Part shown: positions 1-49,389 of the stretch, piece after piece
Layout of the letters: each line of letters starts with the position of its first letter
Position numbering within the stretch: position 1 is the stretch's first letter
Program-made: the position numbers and the translations under genes
NCBI GenBank assembly: GCA_017938885.1
Contig: JAGBAS010000071.1
Span: 1-52,936 of the forward strand
Origin: Clostridia bacterium
GTDB taxonomy: Bacteria; Bacillota; Clostridia; Oscillospirales; CAG-272
Direction of reading: 5' to 3'
DNA length: 52,936 nucleotides
Notes under the pieces: generated by a model
The model's input: the letters and a program-made list of their open reading frames with translations, nothing else
The model's database searches: none
What the model was told of the DNA's origin: nothing

Positions 1-59
1 ATATTGGTTTTTCCGCTGCCGTAATGTCCGGCAAATAAGGTTAATCTTTTATGTAACAC
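1..59 (-). CDS. P-loop ATP-binding protein, N-terminal fragment (runs off the left edge)
   Basis: Only about 19 codons are visible. The minus strand reads R-L-T-L-F-A-G-H-Y-G-S-G-K-T-N, a Walker A loop (GHYGSGKT) directly after a short beta-strand, as at the N-terminus of MinD/CobQ-like or related P-loop NTPases. I place the start at a GTG (57-59); no strong ribosome site is visible, so the start is uncertain. The gene lies about 30 bases downstream of the stop of the acyl-CoA synthetase on the same strand, so the two are probably cotranscribed under the T-box leader. The substrate and pathway cannot be told from this fragment. Confidence 0.55.
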   Translation of the reverse strand, partial: MLHKRLTLFAGHYGSGKTN

Positions 60-88: not shown

Positions 89-2386
89 TTAGAGTTGTTT
101 ACGGATGATTTTGCCGCTTGTGGTCTTCGGCAGGCTTTCCCGGAATTCCACGATTCGGGGATACTTATACGGCGCGGTGCGGGACTTGACATAGTCCTGG
201 ATCTGCTTTTTCAGCTCGTCGGTGCCCTTGAAGTCCTTCACCAACACAATGGAGGCCTTGACCACCTGTCCGCGGACCTCGTCCGGAGCGGCAGATACGC
301 CACACTCCAGCACATAGGGCAGCTCCATAATAACGTTCTCGATCTCAAAGGGCCCGATGCGGTAGCCGGAGGACTTGATGACATCGTCTACCCGGCCCAC
401 ATACCAGAAGAAGCCGTCCTCGTCGCACCAGGCGGTATCGCCGGTGTGGTAGTAGCCGTCGTGGAGCACCTCGTCGGTCTTCTCCTGATTGCGGTAGTAG
501 CCCAGGAACAGGCCGCAGGGAGCCTTGTCGCCCACCTTGATGACGATCTCACCCGTCTCACCGTCGGGAACGGGGTTGCCGTCGGGATCCACCAGCATCA
601 TGTCGTACAGAGGCGAGGGCTTACCCATAGAGCCCACCTTGTGGGGATTGCCCATGAGGTTGGCGATGGACAGGGTGGTCTCGGTCTGGCCGAAGCCCTC
701 CTTGATCTGGAGTCCGGTTGCCTTTTCGAACTGTCGGTAGACCTCGGGATTGAGAGCCTCGCCGGCGGTGGTCATATGGCGGACAGACGAGAAATCGTAC
801 TTGGAGATGTCCTCCTTAATCATCATGCGGAGCATGGTGGGCGGCGCGCAGAAGGTGGTGATCTGATACTTGGCGAACATGGGCAGGATCACGGATGCGT
901 CAAAGCGGTCGAAGTCGTAGGTGAATACTGCGCCCTCGGCCAGCCATTGGCCGTAGAGCTTGCCCCACAGAGCCTTACCCCAGCCCGTATCCGAGATGGT
1001 GAAGTGGAGGCCGTCCTCGGAAACGCCGTGCCAGTACTTGGCGGTGATGTAGTGACCCAGGGCATACTTATAGCTGTGGGCGGCGATCTTGGGATAGCCC
1101 GTAGTACCCGACGTAAAGAACATAATCATGGGATCGTCGCCGCAGGGGGTATCCTCGGTACGGTAGAAGTGAGCCGAGTAAAGAGGGAATTCCTCATCGA
1201 AATTGCGCCAACCCTCACGCTCACCGCCCACCAGGATCTTGGTCTTGAGGGAAGGTGCCTCTGCGGCGGCCAGGTCTACCTGGTTCGCCACGTCACCGTC
1301 GGCGGTACAGACAATAGCAGAGACCTCGGCGGCGTTGAAGCGGTACTCCAGATCGTGCTTGACCAGCTGGTTGGTGGCGGGGATGGCGATAGCGCCCAGC
1401 TTGTGCAGGCCCAGGATCGCAAACCAGAACTGGTAGTGTCGCTTGAGCACCAGCATAACACGGTCGCCCCGCTTGATGCCCAGGGACTTGAAGTAGTTGG
1501 CCGCTTGCGCCGAGGCGCGCTTCATGTCGTTGAAGGTAAAGCGGCGCTCGGTCATATCGCGGGAAATGTGGAGCATGGCCAGCTTGTTCGGGTCGCGCTT
1601 AGCCAGGGCGTCCACTACGTCAAAGGCGAAGTTGAACTGATCCTCGTTCTTGAAGGTGATCTTTTGCAACGCACCCTTCTCATCCACCACGGTATCAATG
1701 AAGGGGGTGGTGACGGTAACGGCGGCGCGGGTCTCTCCCTCGGCGTGCACCTGGCGCAGAGTCTCCTGCACCAGCTCGGGGGACAGGGCGCTCTCACCGG
1801 GGAGGACAACGGCCATGAACAGGCAGTCCTGACCGTCCACGGCGATCATACCGTGGGGGGTGGAGGAATTGTAATAGATGCAGTCGCCCGCCTCCAGATA
1901 CTCGATATTGGAGCCGACCTGTACCTTGAGCTTACCTTCCAGCACGAAGTCAAACTCCTGGCCGTCGTGCTTGGTGAGGTGGATGGGCTTGTTTTGCAGG
2001 GCAGGATCGTACTCGTAGCGCACGCGGTAGGGCTCGGCGATCTTCTGACGGAAGAGGGGTGCCACCGACATGATGCTGATGCCCGCCTCCTTGGCGGTCT
2101 CCTGGCCTTCTCCCTTACGGGTCACGGTATAGGAGGACAGGTGAGCCGAGCGACCCTCCAGAAGATCGGTAATACCAATACCAAAGGCCTGAGCGCACTT
2201 GTGAATGAAGGAGAAGGGAAAATCCAGCTCTCCCGCCTCGTAGCGCAGGTAGTCGTCTGTGCTGACCTCGGTCTTCTCAGCCATCTCGGCCACGGTATAG
2301 CCGCAAATATCCCGCATCTCGCGGATTCGGATGGCAACCTCCTGGAGCTTGACCAGATCCACTGCATTGGTTCTCTCGTTTGCCAT
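89..2386 (-). CDS. XRE-cupin-acyl-CoA synthetase fusion (AMP-forming ligase)
   Basis: A protein of 765 aa. Residues about 10-70 form an XRE-type helix-turn-helix, about 110-190 a cupin barrel (HDGQEFDFVLEG, then a TPHGM motif), and about 205-765 an ANL-superfamily adenylate-forming ligase. Ligase motifs are the phosphate loop TSGTTGYPK (near 425), GFGQTE (near 562), YHTGD, GRVDDVIKSSGYRI and the catalytic-lysine motif KTTSGKI near the C-terminus. The family makes acyl-CoA from a carboxylic acid, ATP and CoA; the substrate is unknown, and the cupin may sense it. I start at MANERT because AGGAGG lies 9 bases upstream; longer in-frame starts would fall inside the T-box leader. Regulation by that leader is read directly from the sequence. 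The regulator-plus-enzyme fusion suggests product or substrate sensing (inference). Confidence 0.9.
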   Translation of the reverse strand: MANERTNAVDLVKLQEVAIRIREMRDICGYTVAEMAEKTEVSTDDYLRYEAGELDFPFSFIHKCAQAFGIGITDLLEGRSAHLSSYTVTRKGEGQETAKEAGISIMSVAPLFRQKIAEPYRVRYEYDPALQNKPIHLTKHDGQEFDFVLEGKLKVQVGSNIEYLEAGDCIYYNSSTPHGMIAVDGQDCLFMAVVLPGESALSPELVQETLRQVHAEGETRAAVTVTTPFIDTVVDEKGALQKITFKNEDQFNFAFDVVDALAKRDPNKLAMLHISRDMTERRFTFNDMKRASAQAANYFKSLGIKRGDRVMLVLKRHYQFWFAILGLHKLGAIAIPATNQLVKHDLEYRFNAAEVSAIVCTADGDVANQVDLAAAEAPSLKTKILVGGEREGWRNFDEEFPLYSAHFYRTEDTPCGDDPMIMFFTSGTTGYPKIAAHSYKYALGHYITAKYWHGVSEDGLHFTISDTGWGKALWGKLYGQWLAEGAVFTYDFDRFDASVILPMFAKYQITTFCAPPTMLRMMIKEDISKYDFSSVRHMTTAGEALNPEVYRQFEKATGLQIKEGFGQTETTLSIANLMGNPHKVGSMGKPSPLYDMMLVDPDGNPVPDGETGEIVIKVGDKAPCGLFLGYYRNQEKTDEVLHDGYYHTGDTAWCDEDGFFWYVGRVDDVIKSSGYRIGPFEIENVIMELPYVLECGVSAAPDEVRGQVVKASIVLVKDFKGTDELKKQIQDYVKSRTAPYKYPRIVEFRESLPKTTSGKIIRKQL

Positions 2387-2702
2387 GTGTTTGTTCCTCC
2401 TATCGGGAAAAGTATGAATAAAAAAACACACCTGTCTCAAACGTTTTGAGACGGGTGCATAACACTCGCGGTACCACTCAAATTGCGCCAAACGACGCCA
2501 CTCTTCGGAATCATACAATTCCTATGCTCTCACGCGGCATTCGCGGGAGTCTCTACTTTCGTCCATGGGTCGGGTTCAAGTCCTCCGGCTCGGAAGGGAT
2601 GGGTCTCTCAGGGGAATACCGTCTGCTCGCACCAACCGCCGACTCTCTGCACGCATTCGACCTTGACCGTCTTCGTCATAGCCTTTGTTTTCTTATTCGA
2701 TT
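2387..2702 (-). promoter_or_regulatory. T-box riboswitch leader
   Basis: On the minus strand the leader carries the hallmarks of a T-box: an AGAGAG bulge followed by GGTTGGTGCGAGC (Stem I distal region, 2625-2655), then the conserved T-box core GAGTGGTACCGCGAG (2465-2479), then a terminator hairpin with a T-run (2418-2457). T-boxes bind uncharged tRNA and switch terminator to antiterminator. The specifier codon cannot be assigned with certainty; by alignment with other leaders an ATC (Ile) triplet at 2598-2600 is one candidate, but the base after it is not the usual purine. The leader feeds the acyl-CoA synthetase gene. Confidence 0.9.
2429..2457 (-). terminator. T-box intrinsic terminator
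   Basis: A 13-bp stem (CACCCGTCTCAAA on the RNA strand) with a very short loop is followed by a run of T on the minus strand at 2418-2426. It begins just after the T-box core, so it is the alternative terminator of the leader. Confidence 0.85.
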
Positions 2703-2708
2703 GGGCGT

Positions 2709-2737
2709 ATTATAGCACAATTTACAGGCGTTGTCAA
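2709..2737 (-). promoter_or_regulatory. Promoter of the T-box/acyl-CoA synthetase transcript
   Basis: A perfect sigma-A-type promoter: TTGACA (2732-2737) and TATAAT (2709-2714) with a 17-base spacer. The start of transcription would fall near 2702, giving a leader of about 315 bases. Confidence 0.85.
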
Positions 2738-12550: not shown

Positions 12551-15500
12551 TCACTCGGCGAAGGTCAGGGTGACCTCGCCGGTGATCTCATCCACCTCCA
12601 CGCGGGCGGTGTTATTGTCGGGGTCCTCGACCGTAACGGCAATGCCGCTCATGTCGATCCCCTCAATCTTACCGGCACCGCAAAGCAGGCCGATGTTGTA
12701 GTCGTTCGGACGGTAGCAGTCCTTGCCGATCTCAATGGTACCCGTAAGGGTTACGCCCGTGATGGTCGCGCCCTCCTGGACGGTACCCGCCAGCAGGCCG
12801 TAGTTGGTTCCCTGCATACGGGAGCCCGCCGCGATGCGGAAGGTGATATTCTCCAGGCGGAGATCGGTGATGGAGGAGGAAGCCCCCAGTACGCCGAAGA
12901 GACCGCCGTTGATCTTGGAATTATCGCCTTGCAGAACAGTCACGTTCGAAATGGTATGACCGTTACCCACAATGGAGCCGGTGAACTCGCCCGTGGACAT
13001 GACCGTAGGCCACAGGGTATTGGAGAAGTCCAGATCGGCCTCAATGAGGTAACTGCCCCCCAGACGGGCGTTGTCGTAGAACTGCTTGGGGGTGGAGATG
13101 CGGAACCAGGTTCCCTCCATCCAGGTAGTGTAGAGGCGGATGGTACCGTCGCTCTCCACCGTACCCGTTGTGTAGTCCACGTTGCCGCTGACCTTGCCCT
13201 CGGCGGGGACGGTCATGGCCTCATCCATGAACGCGGATTCGAAGGTCATGCCCTCCACAGCGGGGAAGTCCTTCATATCCAGCTTACCGGTACGCTCATT
13301 CCACACGGGCAGGTCGATGGTGACCAGCTGCTTGGTCTCGATCAGAGAGAAGGAGCCGTCCGCCTGCTCGGCGTAGAACTCGAAGTTGAAGTAGGGGACC
13401 CAGGCGGCGTAGAGGGTGATCTCGCTTTCTGCCGAGCCCTTGGTGCCGTTGGGGTCCACGGCCAGGCGGTCGGTCTTGAAGTCCCACTTACCACTGTAGG
13501 TGTAGCCCTGGGGACGGCCGCTCTGGGCGGTGGGCTTGCCGTACTCGTCCAAAGGCTGACCGCTTTCATCCACGCGGAGGGTACGCTCGGTATACCAGCC
13601 CGCCAGGAAGTAGCCGGTATTGGACACGGGGAAGGCACTGTCCTTGCGGATGGGATCGTCGGGAGCGATCAGGGCGATCTGCGCCTTGCCCGAAGCGTCG
13701 GTCTTGTAATCGGCGGGATTGAAGACATCCACGATGTAGACCTCGTTGGGGGAGCCCGCGAAGGAGCCTCCGTTGGCGTCGAAGCGGACGCTGACGGTGT
13801 AGCCCTCCTCGTCCATGCCGGTGTAGGGGGTATCCCACAGGGACAGGCCGCCCACGATAGCCAACACACCGAAGACCACGGCGGCCACGGCCAGGACAAT
13901 GACGATGGCCAGGGTCACGGCGGGAGGCAGGCTGAAATGGATGGGTGCGCGGGTCTTTCCGAAGGCCTTCAGGTTGGTCTTGGGACGGCTCTTGCGGGCC
14001 TTCTTAGGAGCCTTGACGGTGGGCTCCGTAGGAGCTTCCTCCTCTGCCGGAGCTTCCGCAGGCACATCGGCGGCAGCACGGTCGGCATCGTCGGCATCGG
14101 AGACAGAATGGTCGGCATCGTCGGCAACCGCAGAAGCTTCGGTGGAGGCTTGGGCAGTAGCCTCGGCTTCTCCATCGAGAGCGGGAGTAGCCGCAGCACC
14201 GCTTGCGGCGGCAGCCGCAACAGCCTTGCGCTTGCTCAGATAGAGACAAGCGAAAACAATGGCGGCGACGAGGAACAGGAGTGCCAAAGCACCCATGGCC
14301 AAAGCAGAAGCAGGGATGGACTCGAAGAATCCGCCGTTTCCGCCATCCTCGGTGTCGGTCTCGGTCTCATCTCCGTTCTCCAGATACTCCAGATCCTTGA
14401 TACGCTTCTCAGCCTGCTCCAGCTTGGCGTAATTGGTGACCAGAGCGCGCTGTTCAATGGTAGAGATCTTATCGTAGGCCTCGCGGGCGGCCATGACCAG
14501 GGGCTTATCGGCCAGGGAGACGGTCTCGGGGAGCGCGTCGATGGCGGCGATGGCGGCCAGAGTGATGTCGTCAGCGGCGGCGGCACCATCCACCACGGTA
14601 GCGAAGTACTGACCCCAGATGAAGGAATCGTACTGACGGCCGTTGACGGGACGGATCATGACCAGGTCGCCCTCGGTCAGGCCGATATAATCCACGAAGT
14701 TGGCTCCGTAGTAAACGTTAGAGGGCGTATCCGAGGCGTTCCACATGAAGTAGGGCACAATGCCGAGACCGTCGTAGTAGATCTCCTCGCCCTCGGCGGA
14801 GCCCGTAAAGCTGTACTGACCCGTAGCGGGAATGTGCTGCTTGCTGTTGTAGAGCTCCACGTCGTAGGCCTCCTCCAGCGCAGGCGCGAAGTAGGACGTG
14901 AAGGAAAGCATAGTCAGCTTGTCACAGCCGTAGAAGGCCTTGTGACCGATGGCCTTCAGGGTATAGGGGGTCACGACCTGACGGACAGGCGCGCCCGCGA
15001 AGGCCATGTCGCCGATACGGACGGTACCGTCGGCCACGGTGACCGAGGCGGTGTCGCCTGCGTAGGCAATAAGCTCCAAACCCGTGGGCACCACGCGGTA
15101 GAGATGTCCGTCGATCACGCGAACTGTATCGCTGATAGCAAAGGTCAGAGTCTCGGTGGCATACTCATTGCCATTGAAGGTCTCGGTCTCGGTGGACTTG
15201 AAGGCCTCCAGCCGGCAGTTTGCGAAGGGATTGTCGCCCAGATCGGCCAGAGCCTGTCCCAGGGTGACGGTAAAGTCAGTCATCTCGGTCTTGAGGAAGG
15301 CATGGGTACCGATATAGGCGGCAGCCTCCAGATCAGCCGAGGTGATAGATGTGTAGGCGAAGGCGTAATCCCCCACAGAGGTGACCTTGTTCAGATTCTG
15401 CACGGCGGACAGAGCCTCGCAGTAGGAGAAAGCACCCTCCCCAAGGCTCACGCCGTTGGGATGCAGCGTCACGGATGAAAGCCCCTCATTGTACACGAAG

Positions 15501-18500
15501 GCGTAGGTGCCGATATCCTCCACCGTCGAGAGATCGGCGGCGGTCAGCGCGGTACTGTTGAAGGCGTTGGTGCCAATGGACAGAACACCCTTGAAATCAA
15601 AGTCGGACAGAGCCTCGCAGTAGAAGAAGGCCTGTGCGGGGATGGCGGTGATGCCGTCGCCCAGCTTGACAGACACAAGACTCTGACAATGGGCAAAGGC
15701 GGACTCGCCGATGGCGGTGGCGGCGGCCAGATCGACCGATTCCAGCGCGGCGGCGTAGTAGCGGTAGATGTACATACCCTCCTCGTCCAGGGCGGGGACG
15801 GTCATGTTGCTGTCGGAGAAGACGTAGAGCATATCACCCGAGAAGGCCGACTCGCCCACCGCCGTCACGGCAGAGAGATCCATGCCCTTCAGGGACATAC
15901 TGTTGTAGAAGGCAAAATCACCGATGGAGACGCCCTTACCCAGGGTCACGTTCTCCAGCTCCGATGCGCCGTAGAAGGCGGAATGCCCCACCGTGACGTT
16001 CTCACCGATGGTGAGCGATGTCAGGGGAGAGGTCAGCGTGTAGTAGTAGAAGCGGGTATCGCCCACCTTGTAGAAGTCAGCCTTGTAGTTGCTGTCGATA
16101 TCCAAACGGAAGGCAGAGTCGCCAATGACGACGCTGTTACCGATCGTCACCGACTTCAGGGACTTGCACTCGCGGAAGGCGGAGTTTCCGACGGTCACGC
16201 CGTCGGGAATGGTCACGCTCTCCAGCGCGGTACGGGCAAAGGCGTACTCACCGATGACCGACACCCCCGAAAGATCGGGAGCCGTCTTGATGGCGGTGCG
16301 GTAGAAGCTGTAATTGTCAATGGCGGTCAGCTTGCCGAGGGTGATGCTCTCCAGCTTGGAGCAATCCGCGAAGGCGTACGCCCCCACAACCGTGACCTGG
16401 GGCATCTTGACCGAGGTGATCTGTCGGTTGCCCGAGAAAGCGCCCGTACCGATGGAAGTCACCTTGGCATCGGTCAGCTCAAAGGAGCCCTTGACACCGG
16501 GAGCCACCAGGATGAGGGTGTTCCCTTCCTTATTTAATAAGTAAGGCTTACCGGACTGGACCGTAAAGGCGGTATTGCCCGCATCCACGGTAAAGGCATT
16601 CAAGGCGGTGCCTCGGAAGGCATACTCACCAATGACGGCGACGTCCTTACCCAGCGTGACCGAGGTCAGAGCCGCGCAACCGTCGAAGGCACCTGCGGGC
16701 ACCACCGAGGCGTTGATGGAGACGGTAGGCAGGGACTTACAGCCCGAGAAGGCGTAGCGGCCCAGCTTGATCTTCTCGGCGGGGATGTTCACCGCAGTCA
16801 GGGATTCACAGCCCGCAAAGGCGTAAGCACCCACCGACTGGGTGGAGGCCGAAAGGGTCACGCCCTTGAGGGGGGCGTTGCCAAAGAAAGCGTAGTCAGC
16901 CAGAGCCACCACGCTGTCCAGCTTGATGGAACCCTCCAGGGCACAGTCGGCGAAGGCATTCTGGTTGATGAATTTGACGCTTTCCAGACCCTCGACGGAC
17001 TTGAGGGCGGTACAGCCGTAAAAGGCGCCCTGGTCGATGCGCTCCAGAGTGGAGGGCAGAACCACCCGCTTCAAGGCGGTCAGATTGGCAAAGGCGAAGG
17101 GGCCAATGGTTTTGACACCCTCGGGGATAATGACCTCCTCCACGGTGTCGTCACCGATGAACCAGATCTTAGTGGTCTCGGGGGCGTCCTCGGAGATCTC
17201 GTCCTCGGGTCCCTTGGGGATGTAATCGAAGTTGGAGAAGGCGTACTGGCCGATCTCGGTGATGGAGAGGGAAGCGGGGATATTGACCACGCCGCCCAGA
17301 CCGAAGTAGTGGGTCAGGGAGGGGCCCGTCGTAATGTAGGGATCCTTGACGCTGATGCTGATGGACTTGGAGAAGAAGGTAGGATTGCCGTCCATCATGA
17401 CCTTGACGGCGATGGATGCAAAGCCCTCGGAGACGGCAGTGATCTTGCCGGTCTCGTCCACGGTCACGATGTTCTCGTTGGAGGATTCAAAGACTACTTC
17501 AGTATCCTCGGGGAAGTAGGCGTCCAGACGGTAGCGCAGGGTCACGGCTTCGGAGGGGAACATGGAGAGGCTGTAGCTCTCACCCACGAATTTCATCTCG
17601 TCGCCGTCCACGCCGATCTCCCGCTCCTCGGAGGAGAGGAAGTAGTACGCCTTATCCACCAGGTATCCCGTCAAGCGGAAATTCTCCGCCACGGGCTTGT
17701 CGTAGCGGACGTAGCCCTCATCGCCCTCGCCCCGCACCGTCAGGGTGAAGGAGGCGGTCTTCTTGGTCACGGGATCGCGGGCTACGATACGGGACACACC
17801 GGGAGCGATGGCCACCAGCTTATCATTGACGACCGTTGCCACGTCCATGTTGGCGGAGTAATACTCCAGAAGCTCGGGCCACTCGGTGTTGGGGTAGACC
17901 AGAGGCTTGAGGTCGTAGACCTCGTTGGGAGACAGGGTCAGCTCGGACTCGGTAAAGTAGAAATCGGTGTAATCGTCGGGCAGGGGGATCTCGTAGGCGG
18001 CGGTGTTCAGCGCGTAGTCGTAGGCGACCACGGTGATGCAGTTACCGTTGGCGGAACCGGTACGGATCTCGTCCACGTAATCGGTCAGCTCGTAGATGAC
18101 GGTGGTGGTGGAGTTCTCCTCGGAGTAGACGGGGGTCATGTACTTGTCAAAGGCCTTGACCATGTAGCCGTCCTGCTCCAGGGCCACGTAGCCCACCTGC
18201 ATACACATGGCGTAGTGGTTGTCGTAGACCGACATCTTGGCAAAGAGGCGGGTCTTCTTGGCCGACTTGTCGTACTCGGTGTAGAACTCGCAGTCGGTGA
18301 TGGCGGGAGCCTCGAAGTCGGTGACGACGGGGAAGGTAAACGTATTATTGTCGTTGGTCTCGGCACCGTCGCGATCATAGTCCATGTAGGTTTTGAGGGT
18401 GACGGTGTAGGAGGTATTATTCTTGAGATTCTGCTCAATGGCCGAGAACTTGACGTCAACGTTGGCGGGGAAGATGGTCGCGCCGTTACTGTAGGACTTG

Positions 18501-21400
18501 CGGATATCCCGATCCACGGTCTCGTAGACCACCTCGCCGGTCACGTCGTCGGTGACCGTCACCACGACCTCCTTGGCGTTTCGGAGCAGACCCGCCCAGA
18601 CGTACTGGACGGAATTGACCGCACCCTCCTGGTTGGAGATGGAGATGTACTTGCGGTCTGCGGCGATCTTCTTGTCGGCAGGGTTCTGGACGAAATAGTA
18701 GGCACCCATGAAGCTCACGTAGTCCCCCTCCACGCGTCCCACGGGACGGGTGGCGTAGGCATCGGGCAGGGTCTTGTCCAAAAGGTCGATGGAATCGTCC
18801 AGCTCGTCCTTATTGGTAGCAAAGAAATCCAGGTCGAGGATGGGAGCCTCGGTCCAGTCGCCGTAGAAGGCCAGGAAGGGAGCGTTCAGGCTGACGGCGG
18901 TTCCCTCCTTGGCGGTCAGGGTCACGAAGCCCTCCACGTACATACCGTTCTCGAAAGAATCGTTCAGGTACTTCTTGTCGTCCTCGCTCAAGGTGATGGT
19001 AACGGTCAGCTCGGCAACCTTACCGCCCGCCACGGTGACGGTATTGCCCGAGGCGGTACCGCCCGAGCAGGCCGTCAGCACCACAGAGGCGCCGCCCAGG
19101 ATGTAGCCCTGCTCGGTGACGGTGGTCTCGCCCTGGTTGGTCTTGGTGTCGCTGACGCCCTCGGTCATGACGAGAGCCGAAACGTCATAGGTCAAGGCCG
19201 AGGCGCCGAAGTTGTTGATGGCAAATTTGAGGGTGTACACACCGGTGCAGGTAGGATCGTCGCCCAGCTCGATCTTGGACTTGTCCATGATCTCACCCGT
19301 CTTGCGGTCGTAAGTCTGTACGAAAGCCTTGGTAGCGGCGGAATTGGTCAGATTGGCCAGGCCCGCGCCCTGCTTACGGGGGGAATAGGGCAGGCCGTTG
19401 GTATTGTAGACGATGTCCGCAGTGGACATGAGAAGCTGATTGACGAAGGCGGCTACGGCCACAGGGTCGTTGGCCTTATCGGGGAAGTTCTGCTTGACGT
19501 ACTGACGGAGCAGGGCGGTCACACCCGACATATTGGGGGTCGCCATGGAGGTACCCGAAATGCGGTCGTAGGACTGACCGGGGACAGCCGACAGGATGGA
19601 GCCGCCGTGGGCGGTGATCTCAGGCTTCAGCTGGAGATCGGGGGTGGGGCCCCAGGAGGAGAAGTCGGACATGAAGGGGCCCGAGGTCTGGGAACGCTTC
19701 ACCGACAGGACGCCCTTGCCGGCGGCGGCCAGCAGCTCACCGTCGTCCTGGCGGATGGAGGCCACGGCGATGGTGGTGTCGCCCACGTTCATCTTGATAT
19801 CACCCGATACGTTATTGTAGATGATGATACCCGCCGCGCCCTTCTGCTGGGCCACGTTGGCCTTCTCCTCGAAGGTGGTGGAGCCGCGGGCGACCAGCGC
19901 GATCTTGCCGGTCACGTCGATGCCGGTATAGTCAGCCGAGCGGCCTGCGCCGGGGATGGTGATGAACTCGATCTCCATTTCGTCCACTCCGTCGGGGAGA
20001 AGATCGTCGTAGAAGTTCTTCTCCTCGGAGACGCGGTCGGAGGACTCCAGGAAGTAGATGATGGTCTCGCCAAAGAGCAGGTAAGGCGTCTTGGTTCCGC
20101 TGATGGAGGCGACCGAAAGCGCACCCTTATATGTAGAAGGAGAACCGACGGTAGCCGAGTCGGGGTTGGAGGTAAGCCCCAGGTTACCGTTCTTCTCGGA
20201 GGAATAGGTAGAATTGTAGCTGTTGGAGGCGGCGGCTACGATGGAGATACCGGCGGCGCGGATACGGTCGTACACGCCCGAGATGGCTTCCTTATCCATC
20301 TCGCGGGAGAAGCCGCAGTCGGTACCGAGAGACATATTGATGACGTCCACGCCGATGACCACGCAGTCGTCCAGAGCCGCCAGGATCCAGGCGGAACGTG
20401 CGGAGGTCTCCACGTCCGAGAAGGTCTTCATGATGCAGAGCTGGGCGTTGGGTGCAACACCGGTAATGGTATCGTCCTTACCCGCGATGATGCCCGCCAC
20501 GTGGGTACCGTGATCCGAGGCGATGGGGTAGACATCGGAGTCCCCGTCGGCGTAGTCGAAGCTGAAGGGCACCTTCTCGTTGATGTAGACGTCGGAAGCG
20601 GTCAGATTCGACTGCATACCCGAAGCGCGGGTGTCCCCGATAAGGGCGGCGACCTCGTCAAAGGTCAGGCCCAACTGACTGCGGTCGGCGGTGAAGTTGG
20701 CCAGAGAGAAGGCGGAGTGGTAGTAGTCCAGACCCGTGTCCAGAACCGCCACCACGGTGCCGGTGCCGTCGTAGGCGAAATCCGAGCTGTTGAAGATACC
20801 CGTGGGGTAGACGTTGACGGTGTTCTCCACCAGCTGCGTCCCCACAGACTTGGTCTCCTCGGGCTTGTAGACCTCACCGATGATGGTGGTGCCTCGGTCG
20901 CCCACCGTCTTGGCGATGGCCTCGAAATCCCCCGCTCGGATGACCAGCTCAAAGCCGCTGAGAACGTTGGTATAGTCCTCGCCCGTGACGTAGTTCAGCT
21001 CGGCCTTGTCCAGGTCGGAGAGCAGAACCCGCTTCTCGGCGGCGATGCGGTCGCGGATGGCGGCGGCCTCGTCCGAGAGGGCGTACTCGGTGAAGCTCAT
21101 GCCCGAGGAGGCCCCGGGATACTGCTCCAGCAGAGATTTTTCCTTGACCTCAATGATAACCGATATTTCATCGGTTTCCTTGATGGTCTCGGGGAGCTTG
21201 TAGATCACCGAGCTGTCGTAGTAGTTCTCCTTGTTGGTGATGAGATCACCGTCGAAGAGATGGATCCCGCCTCCGTTTTGGGTACTGCCGGGGATGAGCC
21301 AACCGATGACGGCGGCGGCCACCGACAGGGTCATCACGGCGGCCAGCACCACCGTCAGGACGCGGATCGTAGTCTTTTGCTTTGCGGAATTTGCGAACAT
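12551..21400 (-). CDS. Giant cell-surface subtilisin-like protease with LRR array
   Basis: A protein of 2,949 aa. I start at MFANSAKQ (AAGGTAAGG upstream) rather than the in-frame ATG 26 codons earlier. After an N-terminal signal/anchor helix (about 10-32) comes an S8 domain with triad Asp221 (AVLDTGLD), His297 (SDHGTHVAG) and Ser618 (SGTSMATP), with a protease-associated (PA) insert near 500-570. Fn3-like domains follow, then a BspA-type leucine-rich array (about 1370-2170; units like IGEYAFRG). A membrane helix (about 2363-2390), a roughly 100-residue Ala/Glu/Lys-rich segment and a second helix (about 2492-2522) precede an InlB-type repeat (VSVRFDANGGSF) and a GLUG-like C-terminus. Two internal helices would place the Ala/Glu loop in the cytoplasm. 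It probably cuts host or dietary protein and feeds the Opp system downstream. Fusion of two genes is possible. Confidence 0.87.
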   Translation of the reverse strand: MFANSAKQKTTIRVLTVVLAAVMTLSVAAAVIGWLIPGSTQNGGGIHLFDGDLITNKENYYDSSVIYKLPETIKETDEISVIIEVKEKSLLEQYPGASSGMSFTEYALSDEAAAIRDRIAAEKRVLLSDLDKAELNYVTGEDYTNVLSGFELVIRAGDFEAIAKTVGDRGTTIIGEVYKPEETKSVGTQLVENTVNVYPTGIFNSSDFAYDGTGTVVAVLDTGLDYYHSAFSLANFTADRSQLGLTFDEVAALIGDTRASGMQSNLTASDVYINEKVPFSFDYADGDSDVYPIASDHGTHVAGIIAGKDDTITGVAPNAQLCIMKTFSDVETSARSAWILAALDDCVVIGVDVINMSLGTDCGFSREMDKEAISGVYDRIRAAGISIVAAASNSYNSTYSSEKNGNLGLTSNPDSATVGSPSTYKGALSVASISGTKTPYLLFGETIIYFLESSDRVSEEKNFYDDLLPDGVDEMEIEFITIPGAGRSADYTGIDVTGKIALVARGSTTFEEKANVAQQKGAAGIIIYNNVSGDIKMNVGDTTIAVASIRQDDGELLAAAGKGVLSVKRSQTSGPFMSDFSSWGPTPDLQLKPEITAHGGSILSAVPGQSYDRISGTSMATPNMSGVTALLRQYVKQNFPDKANDPVAVAAFVNQLLMSTADIVYNTNGLPYSPRKQGAGLANLTNSAATKAFVQTYDRKTGEIMDKSKIELGDDPTCTGVYTLKFAINNFGASALTYDVSALVMTEGVSDTKTNQGETTVTEQGYILGGASVVLTACSGGTASGNTVTVAGGKVAELTVTITLSEDDKKYLNDSFENGMYVEGFVTLTAKEGTAVSLNAPFLAFYGDWTEAPILDLDFFATNKDELDDSIDLLDKTLPDAYATRPVGRVEGDYVSFMGAYYFVQNPADKKIAADRKYISISNQEGAVNSVQYVWAGLLRNAKEVVVTVTDDVTGEVVYETVDRDIRKSYSNGATIFPANVDVKFSAIEQNLKNNTSYTVTLKTYMDYDRDGAETNDNNTFTFPVVTDFEAPAITDCEFYTEYDKSAKKTRLFAKMSVYDNHYAMCMQVGYVALEQDGYMVKAFDKYMTPVYSEENSTTTVIYELTDYVDEIRTGSANGNCITVVAYDYALNTAAYEIPLPDDYTDFYFTESELTLSPNEVYDLKPLVYPNTEWPELLEYYSANMDVATVVNDKLVAIAPGVSRIVARDPVTKKTASFTLTVRGEGDEGYVRYDKPVAENFRLTGYLVDKAYYFLSSEEREIGVDGDEMKFVGESYSLSMFPSEAVTLRYRLDAYFPEDTEVVFESSNENIVTVDETGKITAVSEGFASIAVKVMMDGNPTFFSKSISISVKDPYITTGPSLTHYFGLGGVVNIPASLSITEIGQYAFSNFDYIPKGPEDEISEDAPETTKIWFIGDDTVEEVIIPEGVKTIGPFAFANLTALKRVVLPSTLERIDQGAFYGCTALKSVEGLESVKFINQNAFADCALEGSIKLDSVVALADYAFFGNAPLKGVTLSASTQSVGAYAFAGCESLTAVNIPAEKIKLGRYAFSGCKSLPTVSINASVVPAGAFDGCAALTSVTLGKDVAVIGEYAFRGTALNAFTVDAGNTAFTVQSGKPYLLNKEGNTLILVAPGVKGSFELTDAKVTSIGTGAFSGNRQITSVKMPQVTVVGAYAFADCSKLESITLGKLTAIDNYSFYRTAIKTAPDLSGVSVIGEYAFARTALESVTIPDGVTVGNSAFRECKSLKSVTIGNSVVIGDSAFRLDIDSNYKADFYKVGDTRFYYYTLTSPLTSLTIGENVTVGHSAFYGASELENVTLGKGVSIGDFAFYNSMSLKGMDLSAVTAVGESAFSGDMLYVFSDSNMTVPALDEEGMYIYRYYAAALESVDLAAATAIGESAFAHCQSLVSVKLGDGITAIPAQAFFYCEALSDFDFKGVLSIGTNAFNSTALTAADLSTVEDIGTYAFVYNEGLSSVTLHPNGVSLGEGAFSYCEALSAVQNLNKVTSVGDYAFAYTSITSADLEAAAYIGTHAFLKTEMTDFTVTLGQALADLGDNPFANCRLEAFKSTETETFNGNEYATETLTFAISDTVRVIDGHLYRVVPTGLELIAYAGDTASVTVADGTVRIGDMAFAGAPVRQVVTPYTLKAIGHKAFYGCDKLTMLSFTSYFAPALEEAYDVELYNSKQHIPATGQYSFTGSAEGEEIYYDGLGIVPYFMWNASDTPSNVYYGANFVDYIGLTEGDLVMIRPVNGRQYDSFIWGQYFATVVDGAAAADDITLAAIAAIDALPETVSLADKPLVMAAREAYDKISTIEQRALVTNYAKLEQAEKRIKDLEYLENGDETETDTEDGGNGGFFESIPASALAMGALALLFLVAAIVFACLYLSKRKAVAAAAASGAAATPALDGEAEATAQASTEASAVADDADHSVSDADDADRAAADVPAEAPAEEEAPTEPTVKAPKKARKSRPKTNLKAFGKTRAPIHFSLPPAVTLAIVIVLAVAAVVFGVLAIVGGLSLWDTPYTGMDEEGYTVSVRFDANGGSFAGSPNEVYIVDVFNPADYKTDASGKAQIALIAPDDPIRKDSAFPVSNTGYFLAGWYTERTLRVDESGQPLDEYGKPTAQSGRPQGYTYSGKWDFKTDRLAVDPNGTKGSAESEITLYAAWVPYFNFEFYAEQADGSFSLIETKQLVTIDLPVWNERTGKLDMKDFPAVEGMTFESAFMDEAMTVPAEGKVSGNVDYTTGTVESDGTIRLYTTWMEGTWFRISTPKQFYDNARLGGSYLIEADLDFSNTLWPTVMSTGEFTGSIVGNGHTISNVTVLQGDNSKINGGLFGVLGASSSITDLRLENITFRIAAGSRMQGTNYGLLAGTVQEGATITGVTLTGTIEIGKDCYRPNDYNIGLLCGAGKIEGIDMSGIAVTVEDPDNNTARVEVDEITGEVTLTFAE
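14850..17300 (-). repeat. LRR_5 (BspA-type) coding repeat array
   Basis: The coding strand carries more than 25 degenerate units of about 66-75 bases, each giving a variant of L-x-x-V-x-L-x-x-x-V-x-x-I-G-x-x-A-F-x-x-C. BspA-type repeats mediate adhesion in gut and oral bacteria; here they sit between the protease domain and the membrane segments of the same protein. Confidence 0.85.
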
Positions 21401-21468
21401 GTTCCTTACCTTTCTGACGCTTTTCGGCGTGTTTTCGACATATATAAAAAAGTCCATGCGTAAACAGT

Positions 21469-21497
21469 ATTTTATCACATCGAAATGGATAATTCAA
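21469..21497 (-). promoter_or_regulatory. Promoter of the protease-opp transcript
   Basis: TTGAAT (21492-21497) and TAAAAT (21469-21474) are spaced by 17 bases on the minus strand, about 70 bases upstream of the chosen protease start. No convincing promoter is seen further down before the opp genes, so the whole block may depend on this one (inference). Confidence 0.6.
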
Positions 21498-49141: not shown

Positions 49142-49360
49142 GAAAAAAGCCATTCGCGAAAGCGAATGGCTTTTTTCAGTGAAATTCGTTCCTGCGGAAC
49201 GAGTGGAATACGCCGGCGCGGGTGAAATTGCCTGCGGCAGTGAAATACGCCTACGGCGTGTGAAGGAACGAATTTCATTTCACATTGCGACCAACGGAAG
49301 CAATATTTCACAATTCACGAAGTGAATTATTTCACATTCACCGTAAGGCGAATATTTCAC
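49142..49360. repeat. Ordered array of short hairpins with GTGAAAT/ATTTCAC spacers
   Basis: The array opens with a perfect 16-bp hairpin (49142-49177, GAAA loop, core GCCATTCGC). Units then alternate GTGAAAT with small hairpins TCGTTCC-tgc-GGAACGA, TGCC-tgc-GGCA and ACGCC-tac-GGCGT on the left, and hairpins AATTCAC-ga-(A)GTGAATT and ATTC(A)CC-gtaa-GGCGAAT followed by ATTTCAC on the right. GGAACGAATTTCA in the middle is complementary to the first unit, so the whole is one large inverted structure. A promoter starts at its right edge. Confidence 0.8.
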
Positions 49361-49389
49361 TTGAAAAACTTACGTATCTATGATATAAT
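49361..49389 (+). promoter_or_regulatory. Promoter of the 286-aa membrane protein gene
   Basis: TTGAAA (49361-49366), 17 bases, TATAAT (49384-49389). The -35 box touches the end of the hairpin array (ATTTCAC then TTGAAA). Confidence 0.75.

Follow-up and report, generated by a model that had tools for sequence, protein, structure and literature searches.

The locus examined here raises the question of why the gene for an acyl-CoA synthetase should be placed under a T-box riboswitch, and which amino acid would connect its expression to tRNA charging. It is located at the start of a contig (JAGBAS010000071.1, assembly GCA_017938885.1) of a Clostridia bacterium of the order Oscillospirales (CAG-272), analysed over positions 1 to 52,936; this stretch of 52,936 nucleotides is referred to below as the window. 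A preliminary description, made from the sequence alone, had treated the acyl-CoA ligase as a departure from the usual amino-acid targets of T-boxes, and had suggested that the enzyme acts on a branched or aryl acid derived from an amino acid.

The T-box leader and its specifier codon

All elements of the leader lie on the minus strand, 5' of the ligase gene. A sigma-70 promoter (TTGACA-17-TATAAT; 2709..2737) agrees with the consensus at 12 of 12 positions; in the control for this site (2737..2709), shuffled sequence yielded a mean of 0.3 promoter-like sites. The T-box leader itself (2444..2688) matches RF00230 over the whole model, with an alignment spanning positions 1-219 in the covariance-model search, at 74.8 bits (E 2.3e-16). 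Since the gathering score of this family in Rfam is 93, a default scan of the window at the gathering cut-off reports no T-box, while a scan by E-value does report one. Such a sub-threshold score is typical of this genome, in which only one of nine T-box matches exceeds 93 bits and the leaders of trpS, valS and pheST score 93, 92 and 66, respectively.

Stem I (2587..2683) is built of the helices GGCU (2683-2680)/AGCC (2590-2587), GAAG (2674-2671)/CUUC (2596-2593) and GGU (2668-2666)/ACC (2604-2602), and carries the distal motifs AGAGAG (2648-2643) and GGUUGGUG (2637-2630), identified by sequence within 2630..2648 and conserved in the leader alignment. The antiterminator (2446..2481), placed by alignment, consists of the helix UUGAG (2481-2477)/CUCAA (2450-2446) and the T-box core UGGUACCGCG (2476-2467); its bulge is UGGU, which meets the UGGN criterion. 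An intrinsic terminator hairpin (2430..2456) precedes a U run (2426-2420) and has ACCCGUCUCAAA in common with the antiterminator, and a Shine-Dalgarno sequence, GGAGG (2396..2400), is found 9 nt 5' of the ATG at 2386. The preliminary description had reported the promoter, Stem I motifs, T-box core and terminator as visible, and all of them were indeed found.

In an alignment of 50 Ile-type leaders, 93% of the cells in the helices of Stem I, Stem III and the antiterminator are paired, and 23 of the 38 pairs show compensatory changes, a result matched by none of 500 shuffles. The antiterminator helix UUGAG/CUCAA is paired in every one of the 50 leaders, and the terminator, which uses the same strand, is 97% paired. 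The AGUA/GAA loop E motif of the Rfam consensus is absent from the specifier loop in the RF00230 alignment, its place being occupied in these leaders by the GGU/ACC helix; loop E is a recurrent element of the T-box consensus, but it does not strictly define the class. Thus, comparison shows this RNA to be a canonical T-box in every tested feature except loop E, while its tRNA-dependent switching is inferred. Two of the checks proposed in the preliminary description have been carried out: the search with RF00230 in Infernal gave a significant full-length match, yet one below the gathering score, and the comparison of orthologous leaders revealed a conserved codon and covarying helices.

The specifier codon AUC (2598..2600) lies in a 5-nt bulge, C-AUC-C, bounded below by the GAAG/CUUC helix, which is invariant across the aligned leaders, and above by the GGU/ACC helix, all three pairs of which covary (23 cells; 0 of 500 shuffles). 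Its position fits the rule used in TBDB (PMC7778990), which counts from the 3' end of the bulge and takes nucleotides 2-4 as the specifier. The same register, applied to other leaders of the window's genome, gives UGG for trpS, GUC for valS, UUC for pheST (before pheT) and CUC for a LeuA-like gene. Because the helices, the TBDB rule and this calibration within one genome all agree, the specifier is read as AUC, i.e. isoleucine; TBDB lists this codon for 99% of its Ile specifiers (PMC7778990). The same codon stands in each of the 70 leaders identified for the Ile-type ligase clade, and so the isoleucine codon, which the preliminary description had offered as possible and not firm, is now firm, by sequence comparison. 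The base 3' of the specifier is C in the window instead of the usual purine, as it is in 29 of 68 parsed AUC leaders. No tRNA-Ile(GAU) was found among the 30 tRNA loci examined, and an argument from the discriminator base was dropped because UGGU can pair with A or, by wobble, with G.

Two other candidate features of this region were set aside. The plus-strand sequence gggttcaagtcctccggctc (approximately 2573-2592) looks like the 3' end of a tRNA, but a tRNA is not among the Rfam matches at this site; long plus-strand open frames over the ligase gene (80-2449) were taken as shadow frames of a GC-rich gene.

The ligase fusion and its Ile and Val clades

As previously described, the first gene (92..2386, minus strand) encodes an XRE-cupin-ligase fusion. 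The 765-aa protein is composed of an XRE-type HTH (aa 17-78; 2153..2338), matching HTH_31/HTH_19 and helical in the structure model, a Cupin_2 domain (aa 139-193; 1808..1972), supported by a domain match and by beta strands in the model, an AMP-binding domain (aa 262-631; 494..1603; E 9e-67) and an AMP-binding_C domain (aa 681-759; 110..346; domain match). The mean pLDDT of the model is 79. The nearest solved structure is 3etc (616 bits), that of MacsMa, an enzyme preferring 2-methylbutyrate (PMC10455477). The best NCBIfam match is MbcS, selective for 2-methylbutyrate and isobutyrate (PMC10026030); at 430 bits, against an equivalog cut-off of 850, the ligase is similar to MbcS but is not classed as such. 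The AMP-binding fold therefore best resembles that of branched-acid enzymes of the MbcS/MacsMa type, and the protein is predicted to be a 2-methylbutyrate--CoA ligase (AMP-forming), its substrate being inferred.

We collected 80 orthologous loci, 77 of which have enough upstream sequence; the remaining ones (L046, L047 and L071) start too near the gene for a T-box to be judged. A T-box precedes the ligase in 72 of the 77, including L072, whose core is the variant TGGTTCC and whose AUC is unchanged. None was found before the ligase in L048 and L053, nor in L028, L038 and L059, where the gene lies directly 3' of a LeuA-ligase gene pair. In many loci there is a sister ligase, usually encoded by the adjacent gene, and a separate T-box precedes it with GUA or GUC, both valine codons, as specifier. 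In a tree of 136 ligases the 70 genes with AUC fall on one side and the 47 with GUN on the other, without exception and with 100% support for both sides, so that comparison shows codon and clade to be paired. Eight specifiers missed or misread by the regular expression were assigned by eye, the seven missed ones before the tree was made; in L044 the reading CGC was rejected in favour of AUC. The use of both Val codons is what would be expected if selection acts on the amino acid, and AUC is retained in fusions that are more distantly related within the order.

Only two positions of the catalytic domain are diagnostic of the clades, and both lie in the segment Gly470-Leu473 (968..979, minus strand). 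Position 470 is Gly in 70/70 members of the Ile clade versus Ala in 47/47 of the Val clade, and position 473 is Leu in 70/70 versus Met or Ala. By alignment, Trp474 corresponds to the pocket residue Trp259 of MacsMa, Gly470 to Gly255 and Leu473 to residue 258 (Gly459 and Tyr460 of the MacsMa paper are chain residues 482 and 483, an offset of 23). Both diagnostic sites thus lie beside the Trp of the pocket, and MacsMa shares the Gly of the Ile clade. Trp265 and Leu267 of human ACSM2A, which contact the acyl-CoA (PMC6122825), align with Trp469 and Lys471 of the window ligase. The bulkier residue of the Val clade may possibly reflect a fit to the smaller acid, isobutyrate, an inference from these alignments.

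Outside the pocket, 15 further diagnostic positions and an insertion are found within the HTH-cupin part or immediately after it, a distribution that would be consistent with separate recognition on the Ile and Val sides. Conservation extends to the XRE-cupin part but is stronger in the enzyme part. A bolder reading, conceivable from sequence alone, is that each ligase is a trigger enzyme whose XRE-cupin part would bind DNA and respond to the branched acid, to its CoA ester or to some related metabolite; protein and T-box might then jointly set the response of the operon to acid supply and tRNA charging.

In related genomes (L140-L153, L172-L174 and L178-L179) the XRE-cupin and ligase parts are encoded by separate adjacent genes. 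These split loci often lie beside VorA/VorC and mostly lack a T-box; in L149 and L173 the leader reads GUC, like that of valS. They could perhaps represent the ancestor of the fusion.

Operon context and the distribution of ilvC and ilvD

The ligase gene is followed by the start of another gene (MLHKRLTLFAGHYGSGKTN...; 1..59, minus strand), cut by the contig end, that matches the ParA-like ATPase found on another contig of the same genome, C133, and in 63 of the 80 orthologous loci. On C133 the C-terminus of another Ile-type ligase is followed by a Val T-box, a Val-type ligase, the ParA-like ATPase, a ferredoxin, VorB (538 bits against an NCBIfam cut-off of 399), a TPP subunit, a gamma subunit and a branched-chain aminotransferase, which passes two cut-offs for BCAA transaminases (474 bits against 307). 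Comparison shows the conserved order to be ligase(s)-ATPase-ferredoxin-VorB-VorA-VorC-BCAT, so that ligase, 2-ketoacid:ferredoxin oxidoreductase and branched-chain aminotransferase are encoded together on C133 and in orthologous loci; the ferredoxin was found in 57 and VorB in 55 of the 80 loci, many of which end before the later genes. Since 59 nt of the same ATPase gene come after the ligase, the window holds the first part of an operon of this kind. The contig itself shows only the ligase and the ATPase start, without oxidoreductase genes; the single VorB copy of this genome is that on C133, beside the second Ile-type and the Val-type ligases.

Several neighbouring genes deserve mention in their own right. 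No gene between ligase and oxidoreductase is more conserved than the ParA-like ATPase (L100:14786-15469), which matches no family above cut-off. On C133 (L100:6424-10652) a Leu T-box (CUC) lies upstream of two genes, one LeuA-like but divergent, the other encoding an 838-aa TIM-barrel/AMP-ligase fusion; this gene pair adjoins the operon in many loci. A true leuB above cut-off was detected in just 5 of 47 carriers, and not in the window's genome.

Both ilvC and ilvD are missing from 39 of the 47 ligase-bearing genomes searched, 46 of which possess VorB; the remaining eight carriers, the window's genome among them, retain both genes. The carriers in which no ilvC was detected include a cultured one, Erysipelotrichaceae NK3D112 (L051). 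Among 147 genomes of the order, ilvC is present in 10 of the 54 with the fusion versus 60 of the 93 without it (Fisher p 6e-8, uncorrected for phylogeny). About 30 fusion-bearing genomes without ilvC are listed at ≥90% completeness, and missing contigs therefore do not explain its absence. Comparison thus shows that most carriers lack these genes, and they are predicted to depend on the route from branched acids proposed below; in the window's organism, which has ilvC and ilvD, that route would be supplementary.

A weak Ile T-box (35 bits, AUC) in the window's genome reads into an ilvD fragment (residues 236-315) with no terminator between them (L101:6660-7180; C62:52669-53139). It is apparently a relic of a T-box-controlled ilvD, although an intact ilvD lies on C135. 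Elsewhere in the window, on the minus strand, we noted a Gut-1 RNA (RF01706, an sRNA family; 49272-49362; 57.3 bits) and a 2975-aa open frame (12551-21478) with, by reading only, a signal-like start, an apparent subtilisin-like region and then many repeats.

Proposed function, alternatives and known systems

The reading that we consider likely is that this locus provides tRNA-gated activation of branched short-chain acids for the synthesis of isoleucine and valine via reductive carboxylation; no experiment has been performed. In this view the leader is a transcriptional T-box sensing the charging of tRNA-Ile. Uncharged tRNA-Ile would pair through its anticodon to AUC and through its acceptor end to UGGU, so that the antiterminator forms and RNA polymerase enters the operon, while with charged tRNA-Ile the terminator could form. 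The AMP-forming acyl-CoA synthetase would convert external 2-methylbutyrate into 2-methylbutyryl-CoA, the ferredoxin-linked 2-ketoacid oxidoreductase, its reductive direction being inferred, would carboxylate this to 3-methyl-2-oxopentanoate, and the branched-chain aminotransferase would yield isoleucine. The sister ligase, under its own Val T-box, would lead from isobutyrate to valine by the same route. This operon of gut and rumen bacteria thus appears to use scavenged branched fatty acids instead of the textbook Ile/Val pathway. The ligase gene would then probably be an amino-acid biosynthesis gene in disguise, and the supposed departure from the usual T-box targets is corrected, acid activation being the first step of amino-acid synthesis in this operon. 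Of the substrates originally suggested, the branched acid is supported by comparison (specifier, Val sister, operon linkage and MacsMa), the activity itself being inferred, while the aryl acid is unsupported.

Three other explanations may be considered. The ligase could provide branched acyl-CoA primers for the synthesis of branched-chain fatty acids, the role of MbcS in Staphylococcus aureus, the T-box coupling membrane lipid supply to isoleucine status. In favour of this, MbcS, the nearest NCBIfam equivalog, feeds FabH (PMC10026030), and 2-methylbutyryl-CoA could go to both fates; however, the conserved oxidoreductase and aminotransferase are not needed for priming, and ilvC and ilvD are missing in most carriers, which makes this explanation unlikely. 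We give still less credence to an aryl acid (phenylacetate or indoleacetate) as substrate under a Phe or Trp T-box. The reductive carboxylation of phenylacetate to phenylalanine is known in rumen bacteria (PMC7356843), but every leader of the family has AUC or GUN as its specifier, and neither UUC nor UGG occurs, and the oxidoreductase matches VorB best, not the indolepyruvate enzyme IorA.

It is equally hard to sustain a degradative direction, in which an amino acid would be converted for energy through the 2-oxoacid and acyl-CoA to the acid. Oxidoreductases of this family serve peptide fermentation in other anaerobes, which is the point in its favour. Against it, a T-box opens at amino-acid scarcity, the wrong moment for degradation, AMP-forming ligases work toward the thioester, and genomes without ilvC and ilvD would be left with neither a synthetic nor a salvage route.

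Under the preferred reading, activation for amino-acid synthesis, the locus proposes genes for the acid-activating step of the route from branched volatile fatty acids, from which rumen anaerobes have long been reported to make Ile, Val and Leu. The predicted substrates of two sister ligases, 2-methylbutyrate and isobutyrate, are assigned from the codons of their controlling RNAs. This would be a natural example of enzyme specificity read from a riboswitch, in which two paralogues differ in their codon and in a Gly/Ala switch by the acyl pocket. In the literature searched we found no report linking a T-box to an acyl-CoA synthetase, a 2-ketoisovalerate oxidoreductase or branched acids, and none that assigns the present genes to the known biochemistry; major T-box regulon surveys (e.g. 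Vitreschak 2008) were not covered, and no priority is claimed.

With the known Ile (AUC) T-boxes of RF00230 the leader has in common the Stem I AGAGAG/GGUUGGUG motifs, the K-turn region, the specifier bulge, Stem III, the UGGN antiterminator and the terminator; it differs in its acyl-CoA synthetase target, in the lack of a loop-E match and in its Val T-box partner on the sister gene of the same operon. The catalytic domain of MacsMa of Methanosarcina acetivorans (PDB 3etc) aligns end to end with the window ligase, but this archaeal enzyme has no XRE-cupin part and is not known to be under a T-box. MbcS belongs to the same ligase family, and its acids, 2-methylbutyrate and isobutyrate, are also the substrates predicted here, whereas MbcS is a stand-alone protein, one enzyme for both acids, that feeds branched fatty acid synthesis, and its equivalog cut-off is not reached here. 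In chemistry the closest parallel comes from rumen anaerobes, which carboxylate branched volatile fatty acids reductively (Robinson & Allison 1969; Allison & Peel 1971; both cited in PMC7356843), with the same predicted sequence of acid, acyl-CoA, 2-oxoacid and Ile or Val; the conversion of 2-methylbutyrate to Ile and of isobutyrate to Val has also been inferred for Methanobrevibacter ruminantium (PMC2812497). That rumen work was biochemical, whereas linked genes and tRNA-dependent control are proposed here. The biochemistry has been known since the 1960s and the RNA itself is ordinary; what appears new is the controlled gene and the paired specifiers.
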